57,352 nt of DNA from a virus, in IMG/VR virus record IMGVR_UViG_3300044960_000873, positions 1 through 57,352 of that record, one strand, 5' to 3'. Under the pieces are notes generated by a model. That model was given only the letters and a program-made list of their open reading frames with translations, had not been told where the DNA came from and made no database searches. The stretch's first letter is position 1. Each line of letters begins with the position of its first letter. A program made the position numbers and the translations under genes. This document shows, in pieces, positions 31,763 to 41,572 of the stretch.

Positions 31763-32869
31763 ATGACCCGCGATTACCCCGGCGTGCGCATCCTCCCCTC
31801 GGGCGCGATCGCCTACACGATCCGCGAACCCGACCATGCGGGGATCGTCCGCCATCGCACGATCACCCGCGACCAGGTCACCGGCGAACCGTTCCGCACC
31901 CCGGCCGCCGCCCATCGCGCCCGGTTGCGCCACCAGGCGCGCATCGCCGCCGGCCAACGTCCCCGCTCGCGCGAAACAACCGGGAGCTACGCTCGCGCCT
32001 GGCTGCGAACCAGGCGCGACCTGAAGCCCTCCAGCCTGCGCGTCTACCGCTACGCCGTCGAGCAGGTCGTCGCCGGGCTGGGGGAGATCTCCCTCGCCGA
32101 GCTGCGGCCGTCCGATGTACGTCGTTTCCTCGACATGCTCGTCCAGCGCGGTCTCGCCCCGCGCTCGATCCGCCTGATCCACACCGTCCTACATATGCTC
32201 CTGGAGGCGGCGCTGGCCGACGATCTCGTCGGCCGCAACCCCGCCCGGCGCGTCCATCCACCGAGCGTGACCAAACACGAGGTCGTCGTCTGGCAGCCCG
32301 AGGAGATCCGCCGCTTCCTCGCCGTCGCCGACGCGCATGCATACGCCGCGCTCTGGCGGCTCGCGCTGGAGACGGGCATGCGCATCGGCGAGTTGCGCGG
32401 GCTGAGCTGGCGCGACATCGACCTCGCCGCCGGCCAACTCACCGTGCGCCGCACCGCGACCGTCGATGACCGAGGAAGGGCGATCCTCGGCGACAGCCCG
32501 AAGTCGCCGGCCGGCCGGCGGACGCTGCCCCTCTCCCCCCGCGTGGTCGCGCTCCTCGCTGCCCAGCGGGCCAACGCCACGAGTACGCTGGTGTTCCCCG
32601 GCCCCTCGGGCGACCTGCTGCGCCGCGACACGCTGGGCCGCTGGTTCCGCGCGCTCGTCGCCGAAGCCGGCGTGCGCCCGATCCGGCTGCACGACCTGCG
32701 CCACACCGCAGCGACCATCCTCCTGCTGCAGGGAGTCCCGGTGCACGTCGTCGCGGCGGTGCTGGGTCACAGCAACCCGAGCGTCACCCTCGCCGTCTAT
32801 GCCCACCTGATCCCCGGTTCGACCCGCGACGCGCTCGAGCTGCTGGCGCGCTACCTCGACGCCATGTAG
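31763..32869 (+). CDS. int: tyrosine recombinase integrase
   Basis: 368 residues. N-terminal arm-binding region, SAM-like core-binding domain (SLRVYRYAVEQVVAGLGEIS, LAELRPSDVRRFLDML), catalytic domain with the pentad: Arg in LALETGMRIGELRGLSWRD, Lys in the PKSPAGRRTLPLS region, HDLRHTAATILLLQG (His, Arg), VLGHSNPSVTL (His), and nucleophile Tyr in VYAHLIPGSTRDA. Full length for the family. The 170 bases between it and the repressor carry two AATCAGCC direct repeats and no gene. Confidence 0.95.
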   Translation: MTRDYPGVRILPSGAIAYTIREPDHAGIVRHRTITRDQVTGEPFRTPAAAHRARLRHQARIAAGQRPRSRETTGSYARAWLRTRRDLKPSSLRVYRYAVEQVVAGLGEISLAELRPSDVRRFLDMLVQRGLAPRSIRLIHTVLHMLLEAALADDLVGRNPARRVHPPSVTKHEVVVWQPEEIRRFLAVADAHAYAALWRLALETGMRIGELRGLSWRDIDLAAGQLTVRRTATVDDRGRAILGDSPKSPAGRRTLPLSPRVVALLAAQRANATSTLVFPGPSGDLLRRDTLGRWFRALVAEAGVRPIRLHDLRHTAATILLLQGVPVHVVAAVLGHSNPSVTLAVYAHLIPGSTRDALELLARYLDAM

Positions 32870-33128: not shown

Positions 33129-33157
33129 TTGACAAACGCTGAATCGTGCGCTATTAT
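33129..33157 (+). promoter_or_regulatory. consensus sigma70 promoter of accessory array
   Basis: TTGACA (33129-33134), 17-base spacer, TATTAT (33152-33157). A near-perfect sigma70 promoter about 70 bases upstream of the first accessory gene; it stands out in a GC-rich region. Confidence 0.8.
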
Positions 33158-33224: not shown

Positions 33225-33422
33225 ATGCGCAGCCGATTCACCACCATCCGCGACCTCGTCGCCGCCGTCTACTATGCCGACCCCATGCTCTTCGAGGAGC
33301 TGGGCGAGCAGCGCGTCGAGGAGATCGCCTGCGAGGTGCATACCTCGCGCTACGAGGACATCGACGACGAGGAGTTCGACATGATCCTCGCGCAGGCCCT
33401 GCGCGAGGCGGTAGGCATGTAG
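33225..33422 (+). CDS. small acidic protein (65 aa)
   Basis: ATG 33225 with GGAAGGGA upstream. 65 residues, MRSRFTTIRDLVAAVYYADP, then an acidic middle RYEDIDDEEFDMILAQAL. Phage proteins of this size and charge can mimic DNA or block host factors, but none is recognised. Its TAG stop begins the first ribozyme cassette. Confidence 0.7.
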   Translation: MRSRFTTIRDLVAAVYYADPMLFEELGEQRVEEIACEVHTSRYEDIDDEEFDMILAQALREAVGM

Positions 33423-33454
33423 CACACCCTGGGGGCGGCTCGCCACCGCCCCCA

Positions 33455-33505
33455 CCGGTCGCCGGAACTGTCCGGCCTGACGAGCCCCGCGAGGGGCGAA
33501 ACCGG
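33455..33505 (+). ncRNA. type III hammerhead ribozyme 1
   Basis: Stem III CCGGU pairs with ACCGG (33501-33505); cleavage is expected after C33460 (GUC). Stem I GCCGGA/TCCGGC (33461-33476, loop ACTG), core CTGACGA (33477-33483), stem II GCCCC/GGGGC (loop GCGA), then GAAA. The pattern matches the sTRSV-type hammerhead base for base in its core (CUGANGA...GAAA). An 8-bp hairpin GGGGGCGG/CCGCCCCC (33431-33453) ends one base before stem III. Confidence 0.9.
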
Positions 33506-33518
33506 GAGGAGACCCACG

Positions 33519-33824
33519 ATGACCAGCAGCCGCGATGCACGCGTCCCCTATATCGTCACGCCACGCGCCGTGCGCGCCGCTCCTGACGCCGGCTACGACG
33601 CCTGGGCGGCGCTCGCCCGGGACGTCATGGAGCGCGCCGCCGGGGCGTTCCCGGCGGGCGTCGATCGCGAGGCGCGCCTCGGCCTGATCGGCCGGGCGCT
33701 CGTGGACGCCGGGTTCGTCGCCCCGGCGTTCCTCGACGGGCAAGCCGCCGTCTGGTCCGTGCCCGGGACCGGCGGCGTCGAGATCACGTATCCGTGGGAG
33801 GTCTACACGGCCATCCACGGATAG
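33519..33824 (+). CDS. hypothetical protein (101 aa)
   Basis: ATG 33519, GGGAGGAG ribosome-binding site from the ribozyme cassette. 101 residues, helical middle (YDAWAALARDVMERAAGAFP, ARLGLIGRALVDAGFVAP) and beta C-terminus (GQAAVWSVPGTGGVEITYPW). No family is recognised. It stands between ribozyme cassettes 1 and 2. Confidence 0.7.
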   Translation: MTSSRDARVPYIVTPRAVRAAPDAGYDAWAALARDVMERAAGAFPAGVDREARLGLIGRALVDAGFVAPAFLDGQAAVWSVPGTGGVEITYPWEVYTAIHG

Positions 33825-33857
33825 CACACCCTGGGGGCCGGCTCGCCACCGGCCCCA

Positions 33858-33910
33858 CCCGTCCGCCGGGACAGTCCGGCGCTGACGAGCCCCTCGCGGG
33901 GCGAAACGGG
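33858..33910 (+). ncRNA. type III hammerhead ribozyme 2
   Basis: Stem III CCCGU/ACGGG (changed from CCGGU/ACCGG in copy 1, pairing kept), cleavage after C33863. Stem I CGCCGG/CCGGCG, core CTGACGA at 33882-33888, stem II GCCCC/GGGGC with loop TCGC in place of GCGA, then GAAA at 33903. Upstream hairpin GGGGCCGG/CCGGCCCC at 33834-33856. Confidence 0.9.
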
Positions 33911-33922
33911 AGGAGAGCCACG

Positions 33923-34123
33923 ATGACAGAGTTGTACGGGCCGATTACCCGCGTGCGGTTTGCACGCGGGACGCTGGACATCCAGCGCTTCTTCGGCGGG
34001 TTCTTGCTGATCGCACGGGACCTCGTTGGCCACATCGTGGCCGAGGAGGCCCGGGACGACCTCACTGGCCGCGATATTGCGGCCTTCGCCCTGCGCGCGG
34101 GCCTCCTGCGCAGGGCGAAGTAA
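33923..34123 (+). CDS. hypothetical protein (66 aa)
   Basis: ATG 33923, same GGGAGGAG cassette site. 66 residues: MTELYGPITRVRFARGTLDI, QRFFGGFLLIARDLVGHIVA, DLTGRDIAAFALRAGLLRRA. It reads as a small beta-alpha domain. No family is recognised. Unlike its neighbours it ends in TAA and is followed by another type of hairpin linker. Confidence 0.65.
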   Translation: MTELYGPITRVRFARGTLDIQRFFGGFLLIARDLVGHIVAEEARDDLTGRDIAAFALRAGLLRRAK

Positions 34124-34140
34124 CATTTGCTTCCGACGCA

Positions 34141-34213
34141 CGCCGGCCCGGCTCACCACCGGGCCGGCGAGAACTAGGCGATCAGTCGTCGGGCCGGGAT
34201 CACTCCCCGGCCC
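34141..34213 (+). terminator. two strong GC hairpins (possible terminator/stabiliser)
   Basis: First hairpin: GCCGGCCCGG/CCGGGCCGGC with loop CTCACCA (34142-34168). Second: GGGCCGGG/CCCGGCCC with loop ATCACTC (34191-34213), followed by TCTTCG. The first is copied exactly at 38135-38161. No clear T-run follows, so they may protect RNA ends instead of terminating. Confidence 0.5.
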
Positions 34214-34234
34214 TCTTCGCGTGAGGAGAAAACA

Positions 34235-34585
34235 ATGGATCGCTTCGGCGCCGACCTCCTGTCCGCCGCCGTGGATCGCGCCGTCGAGGCCCTCGCTGGG
34301 CCGGCCGGCGCGCAGGTGGTCTCGGAAGCTCGCGCGCGCCACGTGTGCGAGCAGCTCGCCCAGCGCGCCTACCAGGCCGGGCGCGACGCAGCCATCCGCG
34401 AGCTGCGTACCACCGACGACGCCATCGCGGAACTCGGCCGCAGCCGGGCGACCATCACCGCCCTCGCCCGCCGGTACGAGATCGGCTGGCGCATCGGGCG
34501 GGATTGGCTGTTCCGCCCGGACGACATCGAGCGCCTGCGCGCCATCATCGCCGGCCTCCGCCCCGGCCGGCCACGTCAGTCGTGA
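34235..34585 (+). CDS. helix-turn-helix protein (116 aa)
   Basis: 116 residues. N-terminal helices (LLSAAVDRAVEALAGPAGAQ), the HTH TTDDAIAELGRSRATITALA and the wing RIGRDWLFRPDDIERLRAII, like excisionase/HTH_17 proteins; likely a regulator of the array. It ends ahead of the second promoter, whose palindrome could be its operator. Confidence 0.65.
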   Translation: MDRFGADLLSAAVDRAVEALAGPAGAQVVSEARARHVCEQLAQRAYQAGRDAAIRELRTTDDAIAELGRSRATITALARRYEIGWRIGRDWLFRPDDIERLRAIIAGLRPGRPRQS

Positions 34586-34604
34586 AGTTCCTCCTCGTCA
34601 CCCA

Positions 34605-34633
34605 TTGACAATGTACACGATACCGTGTATATT
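34605..34633 (+). promoter_or_regulatory. sigma70 promoter with embedded operator
   Basis: TTGACA (34605-34610), 17-base spacer, TATATT (34628-34633). The spacer holds a perfect palindrome TACACG-ATAC-CGTGTA (34614-34629) that touches the -10 box, so a bound protein would block polymerase. The promoter sits directly after the HTH gene, which may encode its regulator. Confidence 0.8.
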
Positions 34634-34658
34634 GTGGGTGTAGCCAGAGGAGGCGGCG

Positions 34659-35201
34659 ATGATCACCACGGCGAGCCCCAACAGCGCGATCCCCGGCGAG
34701 GCCTTCCGCGCCTCGCACCCGACAGACCGTTGGGGCGCGCGCCGGAACGGCCACTGGGCCGCCTACGACCGCGACGGCAACCGTCTCGCCGTCGGGGCGG
34801 ACTGGTGCACCGCCCCGACGGCCGCCGAGCTCGAGGCCTGGGACGCCGAGGCGCAGGCGGCGGCCGCCCGCGTGGCCGCCTGGCCGGTCGACGTCATCGG
34901 CCAGGCGCTCTACATCCGCTTCGGCCGTCTGCCGCGCGCTGGCCGGTCGCGCAACTACGCGACCGGCCAGCTCGAGCGGGGCGTCAGCGTCTACCGCGCG
35001 CGGTACAACGCGCGCACCGACGCGCTCGACGCCTCGAGTGCACTAGCCGGCACGTACGTTCACTACCTCATCGCCGGCAAGCGGCCCTACCTGGTCGCGG
35101 GCGATGAGGTCGGCACCGGCTCCGACGGCGAGCCGGTGCTCGCCAACGCCCGCGTGGTGGCGGAACTCGTCGCCACCCCCGACGGGTTCCGCATCGCCTA
35201 G
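34659..35201 (+). CDS. hypothetical protein (180 aa)
   Basis: ATG 34659 with AGAGGAGG upstream. N-terminus has WGARRNGHWAAYDRDGNRLA, middle helices (AELEAWDAEAQAAAARVAAW) and a C-terminal beta part (TYVHYLIAGKRPYLVAGDEV). The family is unknown. It is the first gene after the operator-controlled promoter and ends in the TAGCAC of the third ribozyme cassette. Confidence 0.65.
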   Translation: MITTASPNSAIPGEAFRASHPTDRWGARRNGHWAAYDRDGNRLAVGADWCTAPTAAELEAWDAEAQAAAARVAAWPVDVIGQALYIRFGRLPRAGRSRNYATGQLERGVSVYRARYNARTDALDASSALAGTYVHYLIAGKRPYLVAGDEVGTGSDGEPVLANARVVAELVATPDGFRIA

Positions 35202-35234
35202 CACTCCCTGGGGGCCGGTGGCGAGCCGGCCCCT

Positions 35235-35285
35235 CCGGTCGCCGGAACTGTCCGGCCTGACGAGCCCCGCGAGGGGCGAAACCGG
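35235..35285 (+). ncRNA. type III hammerhead ribozyme 3
   Basis: Core is identical to copy 1: CCGGU/ACCGG, cleavage after C35240, stem I GCCGGA/TCCGGC, CTGACGA, stem II GCCCC/GGGGC with GCGA loop, GAAA. The upstream hairpin (35211-35233) has the same stem as copies 2 and 4 but a loop (TGGCGAG) that is the reverse complement of theirs. Confidence 0.9.
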
Positions 35286-35298
35286 GAGGAGAGCCACG

Positions 35299-35856
35299 AT
35301 CGAGGTCGCGTTCATCCGCTTCGAGGTCGATTCCGGGATCCTCCTTTTCGGGTCCTCTAACCCCGACGAGGAGGGCTGCGACCGGTGGGCGTCGGCCCAC
35401 CGGTTCGGGGAAAAGGTCGCCGACCTCATGCGTCGGGAGTTCCCCGACGCCGAGGTCCTCTTCAGCGTCGCGCTGCCGGGCACTGCCCGGCACGGCGTCA
35501 CGACCGACACCGACGACCCTGAGACCGTCGGTGAGGTCTACTCGTGGGCGCTCAACCGCGTGCTCGGCGAGGGAGACTGGCTGGTCTCCCTCGACCTGGA
35601 CGACCCGGACTGCCCGATCAGCATCCTCCGCCACGCCACGAGCGGCGAGGACTTCCTCGCCCTCGTGGACGACGCGCTGGTCGTCGTCCAGGTGCTGGGC
35701 CCGCTGGAGGGCCGCACGGTGGCCGCTCTCCAGCGCCGCGACATCACCGTGGCCCAGGTCATCCAGCAGGTTCCCACCTGGTGGGAGCCTGCGGACGACG
35801 ACGACGACGCGTTCATCGCCACCCCCGACATATCCGACCAGTATCCCGCCGCCTAG
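35299..35856 (+). CDS. hypothetical protein with ATC at the expected start
   Basis: 185 residues if translation begins at ATC 35299, at the same offset from GGGAGGAGAGCCACG as the ATG in cassette 2. No ATG, GTG or TTG lies near. The frame is open from before 35200, so the start is either a true non-standard ATC or a lost ATG. Sequence: IEVAFIRFEVDSGILLFGSS, then DLMRREFPDAEVLFSVALPG, a Trp-Glu-Pro acidic end. It is a functional-looking frame with no stop. Confidence 0.55.
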   Translation: MEVAFIRFEVDSGILLFGSSNPDEEGCDRWASAHRFGEKVADLMRREFPDAEVLFSVALPGTARHGVTTDTDDPETVGEVYSWALNRVLGEGDWLVSLDLDDPDCPISILRHATSGEDFLALVDDALVVVQVLGPLEGRTVAALQRRDITVAQVIQQVPTWWEPADDDDDAFIATPDISDQYPAA

Positions 35857-35889
35857 CACTCTCTGGGGGCCGGCTCGCCACCGGCCCCA

Positions 35890-35942
35890 TCCGTCTGCCG
35901 GGAGTGTCCGGCACTGACGAGCCCCGCGAGGGGCGAAACGGG
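35890..35942 (+). ncRNA. type III hammerhead ribozyme 4
   Basis: Stem III CCGU/ACGG, with an outer T35890-G35942 wobble; cleavage after C35895. Stem I TGCCGG/CCGGCA closes with U-A where copies 1 and 3 have G-C and copy 2 has C-G, a double compensatory change at pair 1.1-2.1. Core CTGACGA 35914-35920, stem II GCCCC/GGGGC, GAAA 35935. Confidence 0.88.
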
Positions 35943-35955
35943 ACGGGAGGACCCG

Positions 35956-36300: not shown

Positions 36301-36505
36301 GCAGCCCTCCGGCCCGTTCCTGCTCCGGTACAACGGGGCTACGACCTATCTCGCCATCCTGGCCTGCCCGGCCTGCGGGCACCGGGACGAGATGTAGTCG
36401 CGCCGCCCGTCCCGTGGGGAGGACCACCGCCGGATCGTCGCCGGCCACGGGGCCCGCCGAAGCCCGGCAGCGGGCCGGGCTGGCCTAGAGGACTGAGAGG
36501 ACAAC
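36301..36505 (+). other. linker with GC hairpin and a Cys-pair ORF fragment
   Basis: The linker carries AGCCCGGC/GCCGGGCT with a short loop near 36459-36480. A +1 frame from the previous gene reads FLLRYNGATTYLAILACPAC, then GHRDEM and stop near 36398; it has no start codon and may be a gene remnant. Part of the linker (GCCCGCCGAAGCCCGGC) repeats at 37110. Confidence 0.45.
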
Positions 36506-37054
36506 ATGGATCCATCCCTGTCGGTCGTGCCCCTCCCTGTGCGTATCGCACAGGGCATCGCGCGCTCCCTCCACCACGCCTGCGCGTTGGAGGCGAGCGT
36601 AACTCGTGAATGGCGAGAGGCGCGTACTCTCGCCGAACTCAACGACATCTGGGCGGCCGGGGTGTGGTTGGCCCTGGCCGAGAACCCCGGCCGTTACCCC
36701 ACCAATATGCCGCCGCCCAGGTTCTGCTGGACGGCGTTCGATGGGGGACTCGAGCACACGACAGCGAGCGGCCGCCTGCACATCATCGTGCAGGACGAGG
36801 ATATGCCGCTCCACATCACCGCCTGGGCCGGCCCAGACGGTGACCGCCCGGCGACTTCGGTCGCCGAGTTCTGGCTCGCCTACGACAGTGGGCGTCTGGT
36901 CGCAGACGCCCAGATTCTCCGGCCAGACCTGATCGAGGGGCGCGAGGATCGCGTCGCCCCGATCGGTGACCTGGTGCACGTCCTCCGGGATCGGTACGGC
37001 GTCCAGTGGGACGTCATCACGCCGGAGGGAGAGGAGGTGCTGAGCATCGTCTAA
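36506..37054 (+). CDS. hypothetical protein, paralogue A
   Basis: 182 residues from ATG 36506, MDPSLSVVPLPVRIAQGIAR, then a central beta part (GRLHIIVQDEDMPLHITAWA) and RPDLIEGREDRVAPIGDLVH. It aligns over its length with the next gene (VVP-P-RIAQG, HAC, ATGRLH, RPDLIEGREDR). The two are a tandem duplication with different linkers. The function is unknown. Confidence 0.65.
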   Translation: MDPSLSVVPLPVRIAQGIARSLHHACALEASVTREWREARTLAELNDIWAAGVWLALAENPGRYPTNMPPPRFCWTAFDGGLEHTTASGRLHIIVQDEDMPLHITAWAGPDGDRPATSVAEFWLAYDSGRLVADAQILRPDLIEGREDRVAPIGDLVHVLRDRYGVQWDVITPEGEEVLSIV

Positions 37055-37162
37055 TCCCCCAGTCCCCAGTTCCGGTCCGCCGGACAGGGCGCTCGCGACG
37101 CCCCTGGGGACCCGCCGAAGCCCGGCGCTGGGCCGGGCTGGCACAACGAGAGGAGTTCCCCG
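37055..37162 (+). other. linker with shared GC hairpin
   Basis: Carries the same block CCGCCGAAGCCCGGC...GCCGGGCT found in the previous linker (36450 region), here with loop GCT. The AAGCCCGG string and paired arms suggest a structured RNA, but no cleavage core was found. Confidence 0.45.
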
Positions 37163-37801
37163 GTGGATCCGTTTCTGCCAGTCGTCCCCATCCCCATCCG
37201 CATCGCCCAGGGCGTTGCGCTCGGGCTCGGTCACGCCTGCGCTGGCTACGCGCAGGCGACCGGCGAGTGGATGCGCGCAGTCACGCTGCGCGAACTCTCG
37301 GCATGGTGGACCATCGCCTACGCCGAGGGGACGCGCCGCGACCGCGAGTATTTTCAGTCTCTGGGCATTCACCCCGCTCCGTTCGTCGGCGGCGTCTCCG
37401 GATGGAGCGCTGGTCAGGACGGGCCAGTGCCCACACTGGAGTGGACGACAGCGACCGGTCGGCTGCACGTTGTGGTCCGCGACCAGACGCCACTGCCGTC
37501 GGTCATCGCACGAATCACGATCTGGGCCGGACCGGCTGACGACCGGCCCCCGACCGAGATCGTGATGCTAACAATCAGCAGCACGATCTCGTCCAACGGG
37601 TTCGTGGCCGAGGCCAAGATGCTTCGGCCTGACCTGATCGAGGGGCGGGAAGACCGGCTGATTGTGATCCCAGACGTGGTCCGGGGACTCACAGAGGTCG
37701 GTCTTGACCTCCGTAACCCCGAAGCCGACAGCGAGACCATGCCGTCGGCGAAGGAACTCGTCGACCGGGCGTTCCGGGCCCGGTACGGAAAGGATGACTG
37801 A
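37163..37801 (+). CDS. hypothetical protein, paralogue B
   Basis: 212 residues from GTG 37163 (GAGAGGAG upstream). MDPFLPVVPIPIRIAQGVAL, a Trp-rich stretch, EWTTATGRLHVVVRDQ, then AKMLRPDLIEGREDRLIVIP. Its paralogue is the gene before it. The C-terminal EADSETMPSAKELVDRAF is an extension with more A/T-rich codons. No recognised domain. Confidence 0.65.
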   Translation: MDPFLPVVPIPIRIAQGVALGLGHACAGYAQATGEWMRAVTLRELSAWWTIAYAEGTRRDREYFQSLGIHPAPFVGGVSGWSAGQDGPVPTLEWTTATGRLHVVVRDQTPLPSVIARITIWAGPADDRPPTEIVMLTISSTISSNGFVAEAKMLRPDLIEGREDRLIVIPDVVRGLTEVGLDLRNPEADSETMPSAKELVDRAFRARYGKDD

Positions 37802-38123: not shown

Positions 38124-38133
38124 TCGTTCAGCA

Positions 38134-38162
38134 CGCCGGCCCGGCTCACCACCGGGCCGGCG
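38134..38162 (+). repeat. second copy of the CTCACCA-loop hairpin
   Basis: Identical in stem and loop to 34141-34169 (GCCGGCCCGG/CCGGGCCGGC). Both copies lie upstream of small HTH genes (34235 and 38185). Confidence 0.7.
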
Positions 38163-38184: not shown

Positions 38185-38580
38185 ATGACCAACGACCTGC
38201 TCACCCTCGCTCAGGCGGCCCAACTGGCCGGGGTCAACCCTGCCAGCCTCCGCCGCGCCATCGCGCGCGGCACCCTCGCCGCCACCAAATACGGCAAAAC
38301 CTATCTCGTCACGGCTGACGAGATCGCCCGCTTCATCCGCGAGCGCCGGTTCGCGGACCGCAGGAGGGAGATACCCGGTATGCGCATGTACGTCACCGAG
38401 TCCCTCCCCAACCACTGGGTCATCAACGACGCCACCGGGTGGTGGCTCGTCCCCAACGTCCCCGGCGGCTGGACCCGCCGCACCGCCTATCGCGGACACG
38501 TCGCCAGCCTCGCCCCCGTTTCCGTCGGCGTCGCCGCGGGTATGGCCCGCCTCGTCGGTTACGAGGAGCCCACGCCATGA
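38185..38580 (+). CDS. HTH_17/excisionase-like DNA-binding protein
   Basis: 131 residues. HTH LLTLAQAAQLAGVNPASLRR, wing TLAATKYGKTYLVTADEIAR, a basic link (RFADRRREIPG) and a C-terminal beta domain (WVINDATGWWLVPNVPGGWT). The stop overlaps the TnpB-like ATG (ATGA), so it is cotranscribed and perhaps its regulator. Confidence 0.75.
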   Translation: MTNDLLTLAQAAQLAGVNPASLRRAIARGTLAATKYGKTYLVTADEIARFIRERRFADRRREIPGMRMYVTESLPNHWVINDATGWWLVPNVPGGWTRRTAYRGHVASLAPVSVGVAAGMARLVGYEEPTP

Positions 38581-39761
38581 CCGACGCCACCCGCACCTAC
38601 CGGTTCCGCCTCTACCCCACGCCATCCCAGGCGGCCCGCCTCGACCTCTGGCTGATGCGCTGCCGCCATCTCTACAACGACATGCTGACCCAGCGCATCT
38701 GGTCATGGCAGACGCGCCGGGTATCGATCACCTATTACGACCAGCAGAACGCGCTGCCGGAAATCCGGCGCGCATTCCCGGAGTACGCCGAGCTCCCCTC
38801 GAACGTGCTCCAGAACGTCGCCCGCCGTGTCGATATCGCCTATCAGCGTTTCTTCCGGCACGGCGCGGGGTTCCCCAAATATCAGGGGTTCCGCCGCTAC
38901 AACTCGTTCTGCCTCCACTCCCCCAGCGGCTGGAAGCTCCGCCCCGGCCCCGGCCGCATGGGCCGGCTCTCGATCCTGCGCCTGGGGGATATCCCCGTGC
39001 GCGTCCACCGTCCAGTCGCGGGAGAATTGCGCACCTGCACCATCGTGCGCCAGGCCGGCCGCTGGTATGCCTGCATCACCGCCCGCCACGTGCCCATCCC
39101 CGAACTCCCGGCCAGCCCAGCCGCGGTCGGCGTCGACCTGCGCGTGGCCGAGCATTTCCTCGCTACGAGCGACGGGGAGTTGATCGACAACCCCCACCCG
39201 CTGGAGCAGGCATTACGCGACCTCGCCCGCATCCAGCGCACGGTCTCTCGCCGGCAACGCGGCAGCAACCGGCGCGAGGACGCCGTGCGCCAGCTCCAGC
39301 GGGCGCATCAGCGCGTCGCCAACCTGCGGCGCGAGTTCCACCACCGCCTCAGCCACGACCTGGTGACGCGTTACCAGGTGATCGTCGTCGAGGACATCTC
39401 CCCCCTGTTCATGGTCGAGCGCGCGCAACGCGACCCCTACCCGCGCAACCAGGCGCGGCGCGCGCTCGACTCCGGCTGGGGGCAGTTCCTCGGTCTGCTG
39501 GAGTACAAATGCCGCGACCTGGGGCGGATGTTCATCCGCGTCGAGCCGGCCATGACCAGTCAGACCTGCTCGCGCTGCGGGGCCGAGCACGATACCGGCC
39601 CAACCGAACGTATATTCCGTTGTCCGCAGTGTGGATGGGAGGTGCACCGGGCGATCAACGCTGCGCGCAATATCCTGGCGCGTGGCCTGGAGTTGGAGTA
39701 TCATTGCACCAACAGCCGACTACCGGCTGACGGGGACGGGGGGCAATGGCCCCCCGGATGA
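38577..39761 (+). CDS. TnpB-like RNA-guided protein with RuvC third acidic residue lost (TldR candidate)
   Basis: 394 residues. N-terminal WED/REC region (YRFRLYPTPSQAARLDLWLM, LPSNVLQNVARRVDIAYQRF), RuvC-I AAVGVDLRVAEHFLATSDGE (Asp kept), RuvC-II YQVIVVEDISPLFMVERAQR (Glu kept), zinc finger CSRCGAEHDTG...FRCPQCGW, and RuvC-III VHRAINAARNIL. Active TnpB proteins carry Asp in R-D-x-N-A-A; here the codon is GCG (Ala). Cleavage should be lost while RNA-guided binding may remain, as in TldR repressors. No TnpA is present. The right end (GGATGAACCG) and hairpins resemble the omega-RNA scaffold end. Confidence 0.85.
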   Translation: MTDATRTYRFRLYPTPSQAARLDLWLMRCRHLYNDMLTQRIWSWQTRRVSITYYDQQNALPEIRRAFPEYAELPSNVLQNVARRVDIAYQRFFRHGAGFPKYQGFRRYNSFCLHSPSGWKLRPGPGRMGRLSILRLGDIPVRVHRPVAGELRTCTIVRQAGRWYACITARHVPIPELPASPAAVGVDLRVAEHFLATSDGELIDNPHPLEQALRDLARIQRTVSRRQRGSNRREDAVRQLQRAHQRVANLRREFHHRLSHDLVTRYQVIVVEDISPLFMVERAQRDPYPRNQARRALDSGWGQFLGLLEYKCRDLGRMFIRVEPAMTSQTCSRCGAEHDTGPTERIFRCPQCGWEVHRAINAARNILARGLELEYHCTNSRLPADGDGGQWPPG

Positions 39762-39812
39762 ACCGTGGACTTCGCGCCCGTGGAGGTGAGCGATCCCGCG
39801 TACGAACGAGGT

Positions 39813-40060
39813 GTTCCGCCCACGCGTGCGGGGAGTAGGCGACAATCACCCAGTCGTTCTCCGAGTACAAGACGTTCCGCCCACGCGTGCGGGGAGTAGG
39901 CGTTCGCCATGGCCACGATATCTTTGGCGAGCTCGTTCCGCCCACGCGTGCGGGGAGTAGGCGGCAGCACCGTAATAGCAACCACGCGCCAAGTCGTTCC
40001 GCCCACGTGTGCGGGGAGTAGGCGAAATGCGCTGGATGCCTGTGCCGCGAGGAATAGGCG
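39813..40060. CRISPR. CRISPR array: 4 intact 29-nt repeats plus one degenerate half
   Basis: Repeats at 39813-39841, 39874-39902, 39935-39963 and 39996-40024 (one C-to-T change in the last, at 40010), each starting GTTCCGCCC, ending GGGGAGTAGGCG and with a CACGCGTG core. Spacing is exactly 61, so three spacers of 32 nt. The last 12 bases recur at 40049-40060 as a decayed copy. The type I-E-like layout suits type IV. Strand: on + the degenerate end is distal; on - the stem pairs better. Not decided. No spacer matched this window by eye. Confidence 0.93.
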
Positions 40061-40526: not shown

Positions 40527-41189
40527 TCACCACGGCGTCACCCGCTCTCCCAGTCTCCACACCGCCTCCGCCGCCAGCGCCCGCAGCCGGCCCAGCCCGT
40601 ATGTCGTATGTTTCCCTACCCCGCGATACTCCCCGAACCGCGCCAATAGCCACAGCGTCGCCAGGTCCTCCGCATCCACCCGCGAGCCGTCGAAGCGCAC
40701 CACCCCCACGAACCCGCGCTGCGGCTTCCCTCCGGCGATCGGCAGCGTCGCGTAGCGCAACACCTCCGGCACCACCCCCACCCGGCGCACATCCGGGTAC
40801 GCGATCTCGCCGCCCAACGCCCGCCAGCGTTCCACCAACGACCCGAACACGTGGAACGCGTCCGGCGTCTGCACCTCCAGCCCCGCCGTGCGGAAATGCG
40901 TCGGCGTCTCGAACGCCAGCCGCAGCGTCCGCGGCAAATCACCAGCCGGCGACAGGTCAGCCAACCGCGCGCGCCGCACCAACCGCGCCCCCGGGTCTCC
41001 CAGCAGTAACGCCCGCGTCAGGTCATCCTCGAACGACACGACATCGATCGTCCGGGCCCGCACGACCACGCTGTATGGCCGTACCGCATCCCCCGCGTGC
41101 AGCCGGTCGGCCAGCTCCAGGTCGACCCGCCCCACCGTGCTCATCACCCGCTCGATCGGCCCACGCCCCGTCGCGTCGGACAACCTCAC
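40527..41189 (-). CDS. cas6: Cas6-like CRISPR RNA endonuclease
   Basis: 220 residues from GTG 41189 (GTGA overlap); ATG 41144 is a later option. Motifs: LPRTLRLAFETPTHFRTAGL and FHVFGSLVERWRALGG in the middle; LWLLARFGEYRGVGKHTTYG and LGRLR at the end, the Gly-rich loop of Cas6 (CRISPR_Cas6 family). It should cut array transcripts at the repeat stem. Type IV-A carries its own Cas6 (Csf5); IV-B normally has none. It is about 500 bases from the array. Confidence 0.82.
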   Translation of the reverse strand: MRLSDATGRGPIERVMSTVGRVDLELADRLHAGDAVRPYSVVVRARTIDVVSFEDDLTRALLLGDPGARLVRRARLADLSPAGDLPRTLRLAFETPTHFRTAGLEVQTPDAFHVFGSLVERWRALGGEIAYPDVRRVGVVPEVLRYATLPIAGGKPQRGFVGVVRFDGSRVDAEDLATLWLLARFGEYRGVGKHTTYGLGRLRALAAEAVWRLGERVTPW

Positions 41190-41572
41190 CACCGTGACGC
41201 AGCCTGCCAGCGCCGCCACAGTTCCGGGTTGTGCTCCCGGCAGAGCCGCTCCACCTCCTCCGGCGCGATCAGCCACCACGCATGGTGCGCCCGCCGGCGT
41301 GGCTTCACCCGCCGCGCCCGGATCCGTTTCTCCCGCGCCAGCCGCGCCAGCCACTGGGGCGTATACCCCGTCACCAGCGCCGCTTCCCCCGTCGTGTACC
41401 AGCCTCGCTGTTGCGTTTTCCAGATGCGCAGCCGCCAGCGCCAGTTCTCCAGCGTCCGCGGCGCGATCCCCAGCCGTCTCGCGATCCAGCGGTCCGTGCG
41501 CGTCGCGCCCCATCGGCTCAGCGCCTCCTCCACCTCAGCCCGTCGCCGGCGTTGGGTCCTGTTGCTCCCCAC
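41186..41572 (-). CDS. double-HTH DNA-binding protein
   Basis: 128 residues from GTG 41572. The first HTH is TRTDRWIARRLGIAPRTLEN (homeodomain-like), the second an excisionase-type ALVTGYTPQWLARLAREKRI with a wing and WWLIAPEEVERL. It overlaps the zinc-ribbon gene and the Cas6 start. A regulator of the cas operon is the simplest guess. Confidence 0.7.
   Translation of the reverse strand: MGSNRTQRRRRAEVEEALSRWGATRTDRWIARRLGIAPRTLENWRWRLRIWKTQQRGWYTTGEAALVTGYTPQWLARLAREKRIRARRVKPRRRAHHAWWLIAPEEVERLCREHNPELWRRWQAASRW

Follow-up and report, generated by a model that had tools for sequence, protein, structure and literature searches.

Why would a phage place self-cleaving RNAs between its small genes? 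What hammerhead ribozymes do for phages has been debated ever since their discovery there, and the question is raised again by the viral record IMGVR_UViG_3300044960_000873, in which four type III hammerheads stand between consecutive small genes. We analyzed positions 1-57,352 of this record (57,352 nucleotides (nt); hereafter the window, in whose numbering all coordinates are given). Our analysis suggests, with a probability of roughly 0.6, that the main function of these ribozymes is to form hairpin-capped 3' ends for the upstream mRNAs independently of transcription termination.

A first-pass annotation, made from the sequence alone, had placed the four ribozymes in the linkers 33420-33518, 33822-33922, 35199-35298, and 35854-35955, and our parsing indeed confirmed four complete type III hammerheads between small phage genes, for which self-cleavage is predicted. 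Each linker is ~100 nt long and extends exactly from the TAG stop codon of its upstream gene to where the following gene starts. It contains, in this order, TAGCAC, a GC-rich hairpin, the complete hammerhead, and a Shine-Dalgarno sequence that precedes the start codon. The order within the ribozyme is the same in all four copies, namely the 5' strand of stem III, GUC, the stem I hairpin, CUGACGA, the stem II hairpin, GAAA, and the 3' strand of stem III, and the Shine-Dalgarno sequence overlaps stem III or comes directly after it. All copies thus have the CUGANGA and GAAA core, three helices, and open stem III of the type III class, with GUC as the NUH cleavage site and an A15.1-U16.1 pair; the predicted cut positions (Table 1) agree to the base with those first proposed. 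A full parse, which requires the core, a GUC-type site, and all three stems, found these four ribozymes in the window and none in 200 dinucleotide shuffles of it, ruling out chance hammerheads. The loose core CTGANGA..GAAA alone occurs eight times against 1.2 expected.

A covariance search, which the first-pass annotation had proposed as a check, gave a two-sided answer. Using cmscan, we found that the Rfam family RF00008 (Hammerhead_3) is the best match for all four copies, at 35.2, 35.8, 37.3, and 30.3 bits for copies 1-4 (E-values 1e-3 to 3e-7), but every score lies below the gathering score of 48.5, and this is why Rfam, searched with default settings, returned no match for the window. Nine type III hammerheads at other viral loci scored 32.9-47.6 bits, likewise under 48.5, implying that the shortfall is a property of the cut-off and no strike against the four copies; the gathering score is a threshold for a curated model and does not define the type III ribozyme class. 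The window copies share element order, core, and GUC site with RF00008, the sTRSV satellite RNA type. In contrast to the satellite RNA, they carry a short tetraloop hairpin as stem I and show no evident sign of the satellite's bulged loop contacts. An inspection by eye for the tertiary contact of loops I and II that makes cleavage fast, which from sequence covers canonical pairs only, found no Watson-Crick pairing between the two tetraloops.

The copies differ from one another by paired changes. The third pair of stem III is G-C in copies 1 and 3 and C-G in copies 2 and 4, so the compensatory change claimed for this stem is real. The first-pass annotation had also listed pair 1.1-2.1 as G-C, C-G, or U-A; these assignments are right by position, but stem I is one base pair longer in copies 2 and 4, and a clean two-sided change is found only between copy 2 (C-G) and copy 4 (U-A). 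The fifth pair of the upstream hairpin is G-C in copy 1 and C-G in the other copies. Copy 1 is almost identical to copy 3, and copy 2 resembles copy 4; this A-B-A-B order suggests that the array arose by duplication of a ribozyme pair. When hairpin and ribozyme are folded together, the local minimum-energy fold is the hammerhead fold in copies 1 and 2, and in copy 3 the hammerhead fold lies within 0.6 kcal/mol of the minimum.

The arrangement itself is already known. It had been put forward as previously undescribed, but Perreault et al. 2011 (PMC3088659) reported prophages in which single genes are flanked by tandem hammerheads and proposed that these ribozymes process phage transcripts into single-gene mRNAs. 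Three tandem arrays were tested in vitro and one in Escherichia coli in that study, with cleavage in both settings, and spliced and circular array products were sought and none found. The window adds one more array of this kind: at least two hammerheads on one strand flank single genes (here genes 2 and 6), and, as in the arrays of Agrobacterium tumefaciens (the ardA triple), Azorhizobium caulinodans, and Clostridium scindens, these genes are small and lie near an integrase gene. It is plausible that its ribozymes, too, cut the polycistronic message of the phage into one-gene pieces. Unlike those arrays, all four copies in the window are type III, two in each of two operons, and each abuts an upstream hairpin, a feature not mentioned in the main text of PMC3088659.

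We turn to this hairpin, which the first-pass annotation had described as ending next to the cut and protecting the 3' end of each upstream mRNA. In all four copies a hairpin of 8-9 base pairs (bp) abuts stem III, with gaps of 0, 1, 0, and 1 nt, and lies inside the 32-33 nt that separate the ribozyme from the upstream stop codon. In hairpin 3 the loop is the exact reverse complement of its counterpart in copies 1, 2, and 4, as though this hairpin had been turned around. None of the linker hairpins is followed by the T-rich tail of an intrinsic terminator (a GC hairpin with a U tract), and we rejected them as terminators for lack of this tract.

A survey of hammerheads in viral contigs showed that such a hairpin is a recurrent companion of type III ribozymes. 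The survey consisted of pattern scans with fixed stem II bases, and its counts are those among the matches listed (120 loci per scan, ~15 kb each). The first set was parsed into 514 distinct hammerheads, 188 of type III and 326 of type I, and a hairpin was counted if it was perfect, at least 6 bp long, and ended 0-3 nt ahead of the ribozyme. Such a hairpin abuts 97/184 type III ribozymes (53%) but only 11/321 of type I (3.4%), compared with 2-3% in shuffled flanks; for hairpins of at least 8 bp the counts are 58/184 and 2/321. Related phages are not fully independent; once the sequences were clustered by similarity, the share with a hairpin was 51%, 43%, or 24% for type III depending on the threshold, and always 2-3% for type I. 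The unchanged test was then applied to a held-out scan that used another stem II pattern, in which 12 of 28 type III (43%) and 2 of 110 type I ribozymes (1.8%) carried the hairpin (Fisher p = 3.5e-8). For the combined 643 distinct hammerheads, which include the four copies of the window, the counts are 109/212 and 13/431, and the difference is present in every GC class.

The two types also differ in where they stand. Type III ribozymes begin at a median of 31 nt past the upstream stop codon, and where the stop codon is 20-60 nt away a hairpin is found in 94/133; the window copies, at 32-33 nt and with the hairpin inside this gap, are typical. Type I ribozymes begin at the stop codon itself (294/363 within 10 nt). 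From the hairpin to the cut there is a tail with a median of 6 nt, and at least five T within 8 nt behind the hairpin were seen in only 4 of 132 hairpins, indicating that these are not ordinary terminators. Tandem arrays were found on 158 of 486 hammerhead-bearing contig-strands, which hold at least two and up to nine copies; the four type III copies of the window are the highest type III count at one locus among the matches listed, with three at some others. Tailed phages also have type I hammerheads between their genes, for example Salinibacter phages 4_13 and 4_2 and the survey loci L016 and L301, where they stand in tandem; unlike the window copies, these have an open stem I, sit on the stop codon, and lack an extra hairpin. 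In Salinibacter phage 4_13 (locus L516, 5995-6079) and at locus L517, the upstream gene's stop codon forms part of stem I.

These layouts point to a common product. When a type I hammerhead cuts, the upstream RNA keeps the ribozyme's own stem III as a terminal hairpin, followed by a single nucleotide, whereas a type III cut leaves an unpaired stem III strand upstream, unless a hairpin has been added ahead of it. The added hairpin is found where, and only where, the cut would leave an unpaired end, so that both layouts would share an upstream mRNA that is hairpin-capped and short-tailed. RNase II stalls 5-7 nt ahead of double-stranded RNA (PMC10240344), which speaks for such an end. In the window, each ribozyme would cut itself at GUC as the polycistronic RNA emerges. 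The upstream mRNA would be left with a strong hairpin and a 6-7 nt tail ending in a 2',3'-cyclic phosphate, and the downstream mRNA would begin with a 5'-OH and the ribozyme's own stem I hairpin, its Shine-Dalgarno sequence lying just past stem III. Every upstream mRNA would thus acquire a defined, hairpin-capped 3' end while transcription is not stopped, and the genes of one transcript could then be expressed and degraded separately. The sequences show the motif, its position, the hairpin, and the specific link of the hairpin to type III, and ribozymes of this kind have been shown elsewhere to cleave. The survey makes protection of the upstream 3' end by the hairpin much more likely, but we infer this protection, as we infer that these four copies cleave, that they form 3' ends, and that mRNA lifetime may be affected.

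It is tempting, though still tentative, to extend this to phage hammerheads in general, which could generate mRNA 3' ends while transcription continues: type I by means of its own stem III on the stop codon, type III by means of an added hairpin between stop codon and ribozyme. We found no description of this rule in the open-access literature, which is not proof of novelty. The rule makes simple predictions for mRNA 3' ends that are testable in phages with cultured hosts, for example the phages of Salinibacter ruber with a type I copy on the stop codon; Salinibacter ruber phages have been cultured, and 144 Salinibacter phage records matched a short query.

Several observations weigh against the formation of protected 3' ends as the main function. 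About half of the surveyed type III hammerheads have no abutting hairpin. The hammerhead of copy 4 is less stable by 5.8 kcal/mol than a competing fold when tertiary contacts are ignored, and this copy may therefore be weaker. RNase R can enter a structure if the 3' overhang has 5 nt or more (PMC10240344), implying that a tail of 6-7 nt would not be fully protective. Moreover, the gap between hairpin and ribozyme is 0 in 86/132 surveyed cases, and such flush hairpins also fit a stacking on stem III that aids folding.

Since most hairpins are flush, the strongest rival is that the hairpin is a folding aid, which stacks on the short stem III or blocks mispairing with upstream RNA, the upstream 3' end being irrelevant. 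Stem III of type III ribozymes has only 4-6 bp and could profit from stacking. However, type I ribozymes are also open-stemmed and lie in the same kind of gap, yet only 3% of them have a hairpin, and hairpins abutting the downstream side of type III ribozymes stay at background (8/184, 4%), though the Shine-Dalgarno sequence may forbid them there. We consider a mere folding aid unlikely.

It is less probable still that cleavage serves the downstream gene, by freeing the Shine-Dalgarno sequence beside the 3' strand of stem III and leaving a 5' end protected by stem I, with translation turned on. The position of the Shine-Dalgarno sequence in all four copies and the stem I hairpin with which the 3' product begins would suit this role, but the Shine-Dalgarno sequence is mostly outside stem III even before cleavage. 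In addition, type I arrays leave an unstructured 5' start with no compensating 5' hairpin (downstream hairpins in 15/321), so that 5' protection is not shared by the two types. The shared 3' hairpin and this lack of a matching 5' hairpin lead us to rank 3'-end formation above downstream-gene activation, as well as above the two remaining alternatives.

One of these holds that the linkers are spreading or recombining repeats that act as homology joints for shuffling small genes, with cleavage incidental. The exact stop-to-start extent of the linkers, their A-B-A-B order, and the inverted loop of hairpin 3 are what such repeats might look like. We regard this as improbable, given that all four copies have an intact core, GUC site, and set of stems, that stem III and hairpin differ by paired changes, and that unrelated phages with unrelated sequences (82 distinct hairpins in the survey) have the same layout. 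Finally, the RNA of the gene lying between two paired ribozymes (403 nt from cut 1 to cut 2, 655 nt from cut 3 to cut 4) might be set free and then ligated into a circular or spliced form, as hammerhead cleavage leaves 5'-OH and 2',3'-cyclic phosphate ends, the substrates of RtcB-type ligases. This is very improbable, for it gives the hairpin cap no role, and Perreault et al. found no spliced or circular products of such arrays (PMC3088659).

The ribozymes belong to a gene cluster directly behind a tyrosine integrase gene (Table 1), in a contig whose minus strand carries phage genes for a terminase, portal, head morphogenesis protein, and head protease. A promoter scan of the cluster found two sigma-70-like sites (at 33129 and 34605) in 5.4 kb, against 0.2 expected, and a terminator scan found no terminator-like site between the genes, from which we conclude that there are two small operons. 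Operon 1 is gene 1, ribozyme 1, gene 2, ribozyme 2, gene 3, a stand-alone hairpin, and gene 4; operon 2 is gene 5, ribozyme 3, gene 6, ribozyme 4, gene 7, and perhaps further genes. The palindrome TACACGATACCGTGTA in the spacer of the second promoter (34605-34640) is a likely repressor operator. No convincing family was found for the genes flanked by ribozymes. Three of the linkers lead to ATG, whereas the gene after ribozyme 3 has ATC at 35299-35301, which is an uncommon start codon, the result of a mutation, or an error in sequencing; the first-pass annotation had missed this codon and the inverted loop of hairpin 3. The stand-alone hairpin and its copy at 38131-38162 each lie behind a gene and ahead of a helix-turn-helix gene, and their loop resembles that of the linker hairpins.

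Table 1. Features of the ribozyme gene cluster in window numbering (aa, amino acids).
Feature	Position	Strand	Remark
Tyrosine integrase	31763-32869		Directly ahead of ribozyme gene cluster
Sigma-70-like promoter TTGACA-17-TATTAT	33129-33157	+	Precedes gene 1, operon 1
Gene 1, 65 aa	33225-33422	+	TAG stop is first codon of linker 1
Hairpin 1, 9 bp	33430-33454	+	Flush with stem III of ribozyme 1
Type III hammerhead ribozyme 1	33455-33505	+	Predicted cut after 33460
Gene 2, 101 aa	33519-33824	+	Shine-Dalgarno GAGGAG immediately past stem III
Hairpin 2, 8 bp	33834-33856	+	1 nt ahead of ribozyme 2
Type III hammerhead ribozyme 2	33858-33910	+	Predicted cut after 33863
Gene 3, 66 aa	33923-34123	+	
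Stand-alone hairpin past gene 3	34138-34169	+	No ribozyme, no U tract; exact 32-nt copy at 38131-38162
Gene 4, HTH_17/excisionase-like regulator	34235-34585	+	
Sigma-70-like promoter TTGACA-17-TATATT	34605-34633	+	Opens operon 2; spacer palindromic, operator-like
Gene 5, 180 aa	34659-35201	+	DUF6098 match weak, under cut-off
Hairpin 3	35211-35233	+	Loop inverted against the other three copies
Type III hammerhead ribozyme 3	35234-35286	+	Predicted cut after 35240
Gene 6, ~185 aa	35299-35856	+	ATC at expected start codon
Hairpin 4, 8 bp	35866-35888	+	1 nt ahead of ribozyme 4
Type III hammerhead ribozyme 4	35890-35942	+	Predicted cut after 35895
Gene 7, 114 aa	35956-36300	+	

Searches for relatives of the cluster gave little. 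No protein relatives of gene 5 or of the terminase were found in viral contigs. At the DNA level, phage records gave no relatives of the cluster, and plasmids gave only short, chance-like matches. A near-identical ribozyme pattern matched three viral loci, of which only one (L121) was parsed as type III, with no homologous cluster, and in bacterial genomes it matched three unrelated metagenome-assembled genomes. The general hammerhead pattern is rare in bacterial genomes (2/398 and 1/398, centre genomes counted), which made cellular genomes unusable as a second data set. PaP3 has a core-like match right behind a stop codon, which we rejected as it was not parsed as a full ribozyme.

Further repeats lie downstream of the cluster. 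A second repeated and structured intergenic element (36449-36484 and 37107-37142) precedes the two paralogous genes 36506-37054 and 37163-37801; it belongs to no Rfam family, and we rejected it as another ribozyme, its Rfam matches being only at chance level. A small array of clustered regularly interspaced short palindromic repeats (CRISPR) at 39806-40024, with four 29-nt repeats at 61-nt spacing, is accompanied by a Cas6 gene (40527-41513, minus strand) and is possibly a phage-carried mini-array or host DNA. A TnpB gene (38439-39761) adjoins this CRISPR array and Cas6.

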